Below are positions 19,127-21,914 of a stretch of DNA of 64,000 bases, one piece after another. Source of the DNA: Streptomyces griseochromogenes (GTDB lineage: Bacteria > Actinomycetota > Actinomycetes > Streptomycetales > Streptomycetaceae). The notes beneath the pieces were generated by a model. That model had not been told where the DNA came from, did no database searches, and worked only from the letters and a program-made list of their open reading frames with translations. Made by a program: the position numbers and the translations under genes. The stretch spans positions 3,596,001 through 3,660,000 of the forward strand of contig NZ_CP016279.1 in assembly GCF_001542625.1 (NCBI RefSeq), written 5' to 3'. Each line of letters opens with the position of its first letter. Positions within the stretch are counted from its first letter, which is position 1.

Positions 19127-20736
19127 TGAGCGGAAGAGCGATGTCCGATCGTCGTGCTGCCACACGCCGGGAGCAGGGGCTGTGGCTGCTGGAAGAGCTG
19201 ACTCCGGCAACCGGCATAAACAATCTCTACTTCGCCGCCCGTGTCTCCGGCAGACTGGACGTCGGACAGGCCAGGGACGCGATGGCCGTGCTGGTCCGCC
19301 GGCACCGGAGTCTGAGGACCATGTTCCACGACGGCGGCGGGGAGGTCACGAAGTCCGTCTGCGCGGAAGACGAGTTCCCTTGCGCGTTCGAGACCGTCCA
19401 CTGCGGCGACGACGAGGGCGCAGCCGAGAACAGGCTGGCCTCGGTCGTCTCGGATCCCTTCGTCCTGGACGGCAGGCCGATGTTCCGCGCGGGGCTGATC
19501 CATGGCCCGCGCGACGACGTGGTCTACCTCGTCGCCCATCACCTGATCTTCGACGCCATGTCCTCGATGCTCGCCCTCGAGGATTTCATCGCCCTGTACG
19601 ACGCCGAGCGGCACCCTGAGGTGACCGGAGCTCCTCCCGCCATCGAGGACGAAGCCCCGAGCGCGGAGAGCGTCAGGTACTGGCGCCGAGAGCTCAAGGA
19701 CTTCGAGCCCCTCGGCAAACGTCTGCCGTGCGCGCTGGCGGATCCGGCGGAACCCACTCTCGCGGGCGGAGACGTGACCCGGGTCTTCCAGGAGGACACC
19801 AGGGCCGCGATCCGCCGGCTGCAGCGTGAGCTGCGCGCCTCCGAGGCCGTCGTCCTGCTGGCGTCGTACTTCCTCCTGCTCGGCCACAGCGGTGCCGGCA
19901 GTGACCTGATCATCGGCTCCCCGGTCAACCGCCGTTCCCCCGAGACCGCGCGGGCCATCGGCTATCACGTGAGCGCGGTGCCGGTCCGGGCCTCGGTGGA
20001 GCCGTCGGACTGCTTCCGCCGGCTGGTCCTGCACACTCGGCAGGCCTTCCTCGAAGCGATAGCGCACGCGGACGCGTCCGTCGACGACCTGTACGCCGAA
20101 CTTCCGCGCTACGGCGACTCCTGGCGGGACACCCTGTTCCGCTACATGTTCAACTACGTCCGCGTGCCGAGGACAGGGAAGTTCCGCATCGGTGGCCTGG
20201 ACGCCGAATTGATCCAACTACCGACCCGGTACAGCAAGTTCGAGCTGGAGTTCCTGGTCGTCTCGGCGCCGGGCGAACTGTCCGTCCGGGCGATCTTCTC
20301 CAAGGACACCCTCGACGCGGCCGAGGTCGGGCGACTGCTCGATCTGTACGAGCAGGAGATCAGAACGCTGTCCGGCCATTTGGACGAGAGGTTCTCCGAC
20401 CTCATCGACTGGCGGGACAGTGCGCTACGCGGACGTCAGGCACGGGCAACGGATACGGACCCTGCCGAAACGCCGATTCCCGACGCCACGCCCGACTCCG
20501 GAGAACTGGCCTACCGGCGGCGGCTGGTCGCGCGGTGGAACGAACTCCTCGGCCGGGAGGACCTGACCGGCGACTCCAACTTCTTCACGCACGGCGGCCA
20601 TTCGCTGCTGGCGGCGAAGTTGGTACACCACATCAGGGTGGAGACCGGCTTGAAGATCCGGCTCGCCGATGTCTTCGAGCACCCGACGCCGGCCGCACTG
20701 GCCGCATTCGTATGGCGAGAAAGGGCTCAGGGATGA
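19126..20736 (+). CDS. NRPS condensation-PCP didomain protein
   Basis: 536 aa. The C domain has [10 protein letters not shown] (His138, His139, Asp143; the usual final Gly of HHxxxDG is Ala) and downstream GSPVNRRS. It is followed by a C-terminal PCP with [13 protein letters not shown] (Ser present). There is no A domain. It probably acylates the aminoacyl-PCP of the stand-alone A-PCP protein (1665) with the beta-ketoacyl chain from PKS-D, since these are the only C and A NRPS parts in the window. The gene overlaps the cyclase stop by one base and HPPD by four (ATGA), indicating translational coupling. An ATG at 19141 with GGAAG upstream is an alternative start. The split C/A arrangement recalls the streptolydigin NRPS proteins, from memory. 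Confidence 0.85.
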
Positions 20737-21914
20737 CCAAGTCGATCGTGACCGAACCGAGCATCGAGAACACCGCACCGAGGGCGGAGAACACGGCACC
20801 GGGGACCGCCGACACGGCCGGTGCCGATGACTTCCCCCTCACCGGGCTGGACTCCCTCCATTTCGCGGTCGGGAACGCCACTCAGGCCGCCTTCTTCTAT
20901 TCCGTCGGCCTCGGCATGCGCTGTGTGGCGTACACGGGCCCGGAGACGGGGCAGCGCGACTTCCGGTCGTACGTCCTGGAAAGCGGTGATGCCCGGTTCG
21001 TGATCAGCGCCGCGCTGAGGTCCGGCTCCGATCTGGCACGCCATGCGGAGGCGCACGGCGACGGGGTCACCGACATCGCCCTGGCGGTCTCGGACGTGGA
21101 GGCCGCGTTCGCCCATACGGTGGCGCGAGGCGCACAGCCGCTGGAGGAGCCGCACGAGGTCTCGGACGACGACGGGACGATCGTCCGGGCGGCGATCGCG
21201 ACGTTCGGAGAGACCCGCCATTCGCTCATCGACCGTTCCCGCTACCACGGTGTCTACGCCCCTGGATACGTCCCGCGTGAACCGCTCGGCCGGCCCGAAC
21301 CGGCAGGGGTCTTCCACGAGATCGACCATGTGGTGGGCAACGTCGCCTTGGGGAAGATGGACGAGTGGGTCGATTTCTATCACCGCGTCATGGGCTTCAC
21401 CAATATGCAGGAGTTCATCGGTGAGGAGATCGCGACCAAGTACTCCTCGCTCATGAGCAAGGTGGTCGCCGACGGCAGCCGGAAGGTGAAGATTCCCCTC
21501 AACGAGCCGGCCCCCGGTTCCCGGCGCTCCCAGATCGACGAATACCTGGAGTTCTACGGAGGCCCGGGCGTCCAGCACATCGCGCTGGCCACCGATGACA
21601 TCGTGTCGGCCGTCCGCCGGATGCGTGCCGTGGGGATCGAGTTCCTCACGACTCCCGACAGCTACTACGAGATGCTGCCCGGCTGGGTGGGGGAGACGCA
21701 CGTCGCGGTCGAGGAGCTCCAGGAACTGGGGATCCTGGCGGACCGCGACGAAGACGGATACCTGCTGCAGATCTTCACCCAGCCCACCGGGGACCGGCCG
21801 ACCGTCTTCTACGAGCTGATCGAGCGGCACGGCGCGCAGGGGTTCGGCAAGGGCAACTTCAAGGCGCTGTTCGAGGCCGTCGAACGCGAGCAGGCCAAGC
21901 GGGGCAATCTGTGA
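20733..21914 (+). CDS. hppD: 4-hydroxyphenylpyruvate dioxygenase (HPPD)
   Basis: 393 aa with two vicinal-oxygen-chelate halves. Fe(II) ligands are visible: His in EIDHVVGNV, His in [11 protein letters not shown] and Glu in [10 protein letters not shown]. The C-terminal helix [18 protein letters not shown] closes the active site. The IPLNEP motif is the HPPD form. It differs from hydroxymandelate synthases, which lack this Asn-Glu-Pro pattern, so homogentisate rather than 4-hydroxymandelate is the expected product. The gene is inside the release/export operon, overlapping the C-PCP gene by four bases and the MFS gene by four (GTGA). That is unusual for a tyrosine-catabolism gene. It either supplies homogentisate as a building block or acts as a second, resistant copy of an enzyme hit by the pathway product. 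Confidence 0.92.

Follow-up and report, generated by a model that had tools for sequence, protein, structure and literature searches.

What does a 4-hydroxyphenylpyruvate dioxygenase (HPPD) do inside a modular polyketide synthase (PKS) cluster of an actinobacterium? The question is raised by a stretch of 64,000 nucleotides from Streptomyces griseochromogenes (positions 3,596,001 to 3,660,000 of contig NZ_CP016279.1, assembly GCF_001542625.1), hereafter the window, where an HPPD gene lies at 20733..21914 on the plus strand amid PKS, transport and tailoring genes. The initial annotation had offered two answers, namely that the gene is a resistant duplicate of the product's target or that it supplies homogentisate as an aromatic unit. 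Our analysis favours a role in providing an aromatic building block over one in protecting the cell, and we consider it fairly likely that the HPPD is a biosynthetic enzyme supplying an aromatic acid to the polyketide.

The 393-residue product (ATG at 20733 to TGA at 21914) is a full-length match to the NCBIfam equivalog TIGR01263, scoring 427 bits against a cut-off of 277, and its best match in a search of solved structures is 1t47 with 516 bits. We rejected an identity as hydroxymandelate synthase, to which it is far less similar: 182 bits to 2r5v and 202 bits to 3zgj, the latter presumably such a synthase. The structure 2r5v is named as a hydroxymandelate synthase in PMC6750108, while 1t47 appears in a table in PMC7582455 as the HPPD of S. 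avermitilis solved with the inhibitor NTBC. By its sequence, the cluster gene encodes an intact HPPD with predicted catalytic activity. The G+C content at the three codon positions of its frame is 0.68, 0.45 and 0.88, with the third position resembling that of the neighbouring genes. Its start overlaps the stop of a stand-alone condensation-peptidyl carrier protein gene (C-PCP; 19141..20736, plus strand; PF00668, PF00550) by the ATGA at 20733-20736, and its stop overlaps the start of a major facilitator superfamily (MFS) exporter of the EmrB/DHA2 kind (21911..23437, plus strand; PF07690; 219.4 bits to TIGR00711, slightly under the cut-off of 230.2) by the GTGA at 21911-21914. A type II-like thioesterase gene (23451..24224, plus strand; PF00975) follows 13 bp past the MFS gene. 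With an exporter and a thioesterase downstream, the label of a release/export operon that the initial annotation had given this run is a fair one. Relatives of the C-PCP were found at 13 loci in a scan of genome contigs, the best with 42% identity, and the domain order was C-A-PCP (A, adenylation) in 10 of the 13.

A genome-wide search of the host, which is a single contig of 10.76 Mb, recovered the second HPPD on which the proposals of the initial annotation turned: besides the cluster copy, one further gene exceeds the TIGR01263 cut-off, at C1:9720201-9721280(-), whereas two weaker matches (39.6 and 28.2 bits) fall under it. This gene adjoins one whose translation, judged by eye, resembles an Lrp/AsnC regulator, and it is taken as the housekeeping HPPD. 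The clustered gene is therefore an extra copy that should not be needed for catabolism. In a sample of 392 genomes of the same genus, every genome has an HPPD at E<=1e-80, and two are present in 12 of them, the host included. The best non-self match of the cluster HPPD in this sample has 67% identity and the host's own housekeeping copy 62%; no ortholog was found among these 392 genomes. In an unrooted tree of 54 sequences (1000 ultrafast bootstraps), the host's housekeeping copy joins the housekeeping group, close to the S. avermitilis enzyme; splits of 94, 99 and 96 set this group apart, followed by the second copies of genomes G345 and G069, from the cluster copy and the remaining second copies. 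A recent duplication was accordingly rejected, the two host enzymes being 62% identical and lying on different sides of these splits.

The active-site pocket of the cluster enzyme is canonical. Over 24 positions surrounding the iron and substrate, a list of our own choosing, it is identical to the S. avermitilis HPPD throughout (24/24), and all the iron ligands and substrate-network residues are kept (H187, H270, E349, S230, N245, Q255, Q269, Q334, N363 and F364 in S. avermitilis numbering). The pocket residues named for the Arabidopsis enzyme in PMC6750108 (Ser267, Pro280, Asn282, Gln293, Gln307, Gln379, Phe381, Phe392, Glu394, Phe419, Asn423 and Phe424), matched by motif to the Streptomyces numbering, cover much of the list, and the same source gives roles for most of the Arabidopsis counterparts of the network residues. 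Across the 54 aligned sequences, only the second copy of G247 departs within the 24 positions, and it does so at four. This copy (L099, C1:7391000-7410999) has V201A, N245V, F336L and K361V and lies next to a gene assigned by Pfam to a Tc toxin component. Outside the pocket, 256 positions have a conservation of 95% or more across 41 housekeeping-like sequences, and the cluster HPPD departs at 55 of them; on the same count, four of the 11 other second HPPDs depart more often (70-76 positions) and seven less often (24-49). Given the canonical pocket, nothing points to an inhibitor-proof target.

The evidence that ties the HPPD to an aromatic precursor comes in large part from a second gene of the window, at 31919..32968 on the minus strand, whose product would be its partner. 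The Pfam name of this product would allow an O-methyltransferase reading, yet its sole strong solved relative is SibL (4qvg; 360 bits, with the next best at 103 bits), a C-methyltransferase of 3-hydroxykynurenine (PMC4426599). Conserved in it are the catalytic Tyr134, Asp132 and Tyr295 of SibL, the nonpolar pair Val248/Ile249 that stands in for the catalytic pair of O-methyltransferases, and Asp292 and His335, which hold the amino-acid part of the substrate, the roles being those that PMC4426599 gives for SibL. The differences are Tyr99 to Phe and Tyr288 to Met. The initial annotation had two methyltransferases acting on homogentisate; two are present in the cluster, and this one is by sequence a ring C-methyltransferase rather than an O-methyltransferase.

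At positions 288, 304 and 305 the window enzyme reads MGM, as does RenB, whereas the SibL group has YST. The 22 sequences that we aligned divide into 11 with YST, SibL among them, and 11 with [MV]GM, among them RenB of renieramycin and the window enzyme; the [MV]GM signature was derived here from these 22 and is, to our knowledge, unpublished. A kynureninase relative (E<=1e-25, own gene calls) occurs at eight of the nine YST loci compared and at none of the seven [MV]GM loci; one of the former is L110, whose C-methyltransferase lies outside the alignment but shares 97% identity with the G020 enzyme. The MGM residues and this distribution of kynureninase suggest that the window enzyme is not of the 3-hydroxykynurenine kind and resembles RenB, to which it is 53% identical and which we take to act on tyrosine. 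A 3-hydroxykynurenine path is disfavoured by the same three residues and by the lack of a kynureninase named among the window genes scanned. The pSCL4 megaplasmid of S. clavuligerus (L127) also carries a C-methyltransferase of the [MV]GM kind, 55% identical to that of the window and unannotated in the gene table for that plasmid.

We searched for relatives of this C-methyltransferase in 384 genomes of the same genus and in a class-wide sample of 394 genomes. Within the genus, three genomes, G368 (59% identity), G298 (56%) and G378 (56%), which include the two best non-self matches and are three of the best seven genomes, have the C-methyltransferase gene next to a second HPPD, divergently oriented, with 240, 361 and 279 bp respectively between the matched stretches. 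In the class-wide sample, matches at E<=1e-90 occur in seven genomes, the host included, and in G740, one of these and also a member of the genus, the C-methyltransferase is again divergent from a second-copy HPPD, with 397 bp between. All four paired loci encode relatives of UbiA, of tocopherol cyclase and of the geranylgeranyl reductase family (above the TIGR02032 cut-off in G298, the one genome tested for it), and three of the four encode relatives of a polyprenyl synthase and of the UbiE methyltransferase. From these gene contents, the paired loci are likely to be tocopherol-like or homogentisate-prenyl pathways in which the HPPD makes the head group, and by analogy they are the best precedent for the role of the HPPD and C-methyltransferase in the window. 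These tocopherol-like clusters in Streptomyces (L095 in G298, L092 in G368, L097/L098 in G378 and L129 in G740) are an observation in their own right, as tocochromanols are made solely by photosynthetic organisms according to the review PMC5745509.

We read about 10 kb on each side of the second HPPDs in the 11 other two-HPPD genomes, with longer flanks for G368, G298 and G378. In six of them (G045, G069, G084, G122, G248 and G267) the second HPPD lies near relatives of fumarylacetoacetase and/or CoA-transferase, named by Pfam in G045 and recognized by similarity to G045 in the other five, and these surroundings look catabolic from the genes present. A UbiA prenyltransferase and a relative of polyprenyl synthase are encoded near the second HPPD of G345, with no C-methyltransferase match, and in G368, G298 and G378 prenylation genes accompany it. 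Ten of the 11 thus sit with genes whose kind suggests use or breakdown of homogentisate; only in G247 is the neighbour of another kind.

On these grounds we propose the following pathway. The C-methyltransferase would methylate tyrosine ortho to the hydroxyl, and a transaminase encoded elsewhere would convert the product to 3-methyl-4-hydroxyphenylpyruvate. The HPPD would then turn this compound, or unmethylated 4-hydroxyphenylpyruvate, into methylhomogentisate or homogentisate. The resulting phenylacetic acid may be activated by an acyl/aryl-CoA ligase (29392..30930, minus strand; PF00501), whose gene forms an operon-like run (29392-32968, minus strand) with those of the C-methyltransferase and of an F420-dependent luciferase-like oxidoreductase (30958..31914, minus strand; 205.6 bits to TIGR03619, cut-off 166.9), the gaps being 4 and 27 bp. 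This run is divergent from the first PKS gene (33221..43201, plus strand), which encodes a degenerate N-terminal carrier followed by two modules of ketosynthase (KS), acyltransferase (AT), ketoreductase (KR) and acyl carrier protein (ACP) in the order KS-AT-KR-ACP. The activated acid would prime the first KS of this protein, straight from the thioester since the N-terminal carrier lacks its serine, or else decorate the polyketide, and an aromatic O-methyltransferase would cap one phenol. A supply of homogentisate or methylhomogentisate accounts for the HPPD, the C-methyltransferase, the O-methyltransferase and the ligase together, whereas self-resistance accounts for the HPPD alone. The supply role put forward in the initial annotation is thereby strengthened by the RenB-like C-methyltransferase, by its pairing with HPPD in four genomes and by the ligase operon beside the PKS; what changes is that the acid is probably a methylated homogentisate.

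Several observations weigh against this proposal, the weakest links being the substrate of the ligase, the degenerate loading carrier and a frame-broken PKS gene. The best solved relatives of the ligase are the fatty-acyl-CoA synthase 8weu and the feruloyl-CoA synthetase 8wev at 238 bits each, so that it is equally close to fatty-acyl and aryl ligases; the carrier-like stretch of the first PKS, examined by eye, has IYRG in place of the attachment-serine motif; and the interrupted PKS gene described below may keep the pathway from operating in the proposed form. No transaminase is named among the window genes scanned, and we know of no HPPD that accepts a ring-methylated substrate. The methyltransferase evidence has its own difficulties: the window enzyme branches near the root, outside the HPPD-paired clade; two of the 11 bearers of [MV]GM (G016 and L127) lack other catalytic residues; and [MV]GM, which all sequences not in the YST clade share, may be no more than the ancestral condition. 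The pairing is infrequent, with 16 of the 19 non-self C-methyltransferase loci of the 384-genome search having no HPPD within about 4 kb (3/19 are paired) and none of the 13 loci with longer flanks adjoining one, and in the window the two genes are about 10 kb apart in separate operons. The scanned UbiA proteins of the paired loci fall under every NCBIfam cut-off, the nearest models being naphthoate and other prenyltransferases, and homogentisate as their substrate is accordingly an inference. Finally, SfmM2, a C-methyltransferase acting on tyrosine, requires the amino-acid group (PMC13109631).

The competing explanations draw on the same evidence. The one that survives best, which we nevertheless regard as unlikely, is that the HPPD supplies unmodified homogentisate, as a starter or as a later acyl or quinone group, while the C-methyltransferase serves another unit such as a 3-methyltyrosine-derived part or the finished chain. 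The canonical pocket is compatible with this, as is the second HPPD of G345 with its UbiA and polyprenyl synthase relatives and no C-methyltransferase match. Moreover, the cluster HPPD and all four C-methyltransferase-paired HPPDs share five positions against the housekeeping consensus (G86 deleted, V93A, I105L, K253R and I371V, of which only V93A and I371V are absent from other second copies), and none of the five falls in the pocket list, so that no sequence sign of a methylated substrate was found there. Speaking against it are the pairing of C-methyltransferase and second HPPD in four genomes and the A-domain code of the cluster (see below), which, read by eye, is asparagine-like and not tyrosine-like.

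We attach little probability to the possibility that the cluster has captured a catabolic second HPPD, which would then be a bystander with no role in the product. Six of the 11 other second HPPDs do lie by relatives of the G045 fumarylacetoacetase and/or CoA-transferase genes (G045 included), and the cluster HPPD is nearer to these copies (62-64% identity) than to the C-methyltransferase-paired ones (54-58%). The ATGA and GTGA coupling on either side argues against a passive presence, as does the fact that no fumarylacetoacetase or CoA-transferase is named among the window genes scanned.

Least probable, and in our view very improbable, is that the product targets HPPD and that the cluster gene is a resistant duplicate, sustaining tyrosine catabolism while the product chelates HPPD iron: the housekeeping HPPD elsewhere, the coupling to an exporter and, leaving aside their effect, the 55 changed positions outside the pocket would fit, but the pocket matches that of the NTBC-bound enzyme, the divergence is unspecific among second copies, the cluster copy is an old one that groups with second copies, ten of the 11 others occur in contexts of homogentisate use or degradation, and the RenB-like C-methyltransferase would be left unexplained; it keeps its small probability because resistance can arise by overproduction or by changes away from the pocket. 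Of the self-resistance idea in the initial annotation, then, the existence of a second HPPD is what stands. Its premise of a 3-acyl tetramate product was not established, as no Dieckmann cyclase is named among the genes scanned, in a scan that included no search aimed at one.

The supply of an aromatic acid by HPPD thus remains our preferred explanation, and the rest of the cluster can be set beside it. Four PKS genes encode seven modules. The first is followed by a second gene (43198..54783, plus strand) for a KS-AT-DH-ER-KR-ACP module (DH, dehydratase; ER, enoylreductase) and a KS-AT-KR-ACP module. On the minus strand, another KS-AT-DH-ER-KR-ACP module (11255..18104) has an interrupted reading frame: its coding shifts frame near 14335 and again near 12815, so that three frames are used, and it shares 98% DNA identity over 6.1 kb with the module that opens the PKS at 43198, the break being either damage to the gene or an assembly error in the repeat. 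The last PKS gene (3474..11228, minus strand) encodes KS-AT-KR-ACP and a final KS-AT-ACP module without KR. Going by the AT motifs, six modules would use malonyl and one methylmalonyl units. Directly at the end of this gene begins a stand-alone A-PCP gene (1665..3470, minus strand; 418 bits to TIGR01733), whose A-domain binding code, read by eye, is DLTKVGEVGK; we take it to be asparagine-like, and a literature search found nothing on this code.

At the other end, the O-methyltransferase (54808..55836, plus strand) has 6c5b, CalO6, AlpH and MmcR as its four best solved relatives, which we assume to be phenol or quinone O-methyltransferases, and an amidase-signature hydrolase gene (55821..57368, plus strand; PF01425, 267 bits) ends the cluster. 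A LAL-type LuxR regulator (26570..29317, minus strand; PF13191, PF00196) is encoded beside the ligase. Between the thioesterase and this regulator lies a subtilase-like peptidase gene (24848-26557, plus strand; PF00082), the opposite-strand open reading frame there having the wrong codon bias. Also inside the cluster is a gene for a 153-residue cold-shock-domain protein (24246-24707, minus strand), which exceeds the domain's 66 positions in length, and just beyond the cluster a CHAT domain is fused to WD40 repeats (57402-59600, minus strand). No sister cluster emerged: 15 loci (L006-L019 and L050, each with flanks of about 10 kb or less) gave no HPPD match at E<=1e-10, and a search of 295 genomes at E<=1e-60 gave the F420-dependent oxidoreductase a single match other than itself (42% identity), with no other cluster genes around it. 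Foxicin was considered as the product and rejected, as its quinone and genes differ from those expected here in so far as PMC5318452 describes them.

Compared with known systems, the locus combines familiar parts in a different way. With the S. avermitilis housekeeping HPPD, the cluster enzyme shares the family, the iron ligands, all 24 pocket positions and the C-terminal motif; it differs in its operon with a C-PCP, an exporter and a thioesterase, in a short deletion near residue 86 (common to 11 of the 12 other second copies) and in its grouping with second copies. The tyrosine C-methyltransferases RenB and SfmM2, of renieramycin and saframycin, are represented by the M288, G304 and M305 that the window enzyme has in common with RenB (SfmM2 lies outside the alignment), but here the methyltransferase is partnered by an HPPD and a modular PKS. 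Tocopherol and plastoquinone biosynthesis, with its HPPD, homogentisate prenyltransferase, C-methyltransferase and tocopherol cyclase, likewise yields a C-methylated hydroquinone head from HPPD, and a gene set of this kind occurs in the four paired genomes; in the window, the head group would be joined to a type I PKS chain and not to a prenyl chain, and the methylating enzyme belongs to the SibL/RenB family. Type I PKSs can use aromatic acid starters such as 3-amino-5-hydroxybenzoate (AHBA), benzoate and similar acids. Like the window, such systems have dedicated aromatic-acid genes, a CoA ligase and the PKS in one cluster; unlike them, the window would obtain its acid from HPPD, and the N-terminal carrier of its first PKS lacks the serine. 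Among the literature matches listed, at the level of titles and the starts of abstracts, there was no cluster for a homogentisate-started type I polyketide.

We tentatively suggest, with rather less confidence than in the supply role itself, that a tyrosine C-methyltransferase together with a dedicated HPPD constitutes a portable cassette for methyl-homogentisate, which Streptomyces would join to prenyl chains or, in this case, to a modular type I polyketide. The product might then be a methylated and methoxylated hydroquinone or benzoquinone heading a polyketide with an asparagine-derived end, possibly a mimic of ubiquinone or plastoquinone. If the proposed role is correct, the locus would add to type I polyketide biosynthesis a new way of making an aromatic starter, from tyrosine via HPPD, and a second HPPD together with a RenB-like C-methyltransferase would be a genome-mining marker for quinone-headed metabolites. 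Likewise, a clustered HPPD would not always signify self-resistance to a herbicide, given that ten of the 11 other second copies are found near genes likely, by their kind, to use or break down homogentisate.

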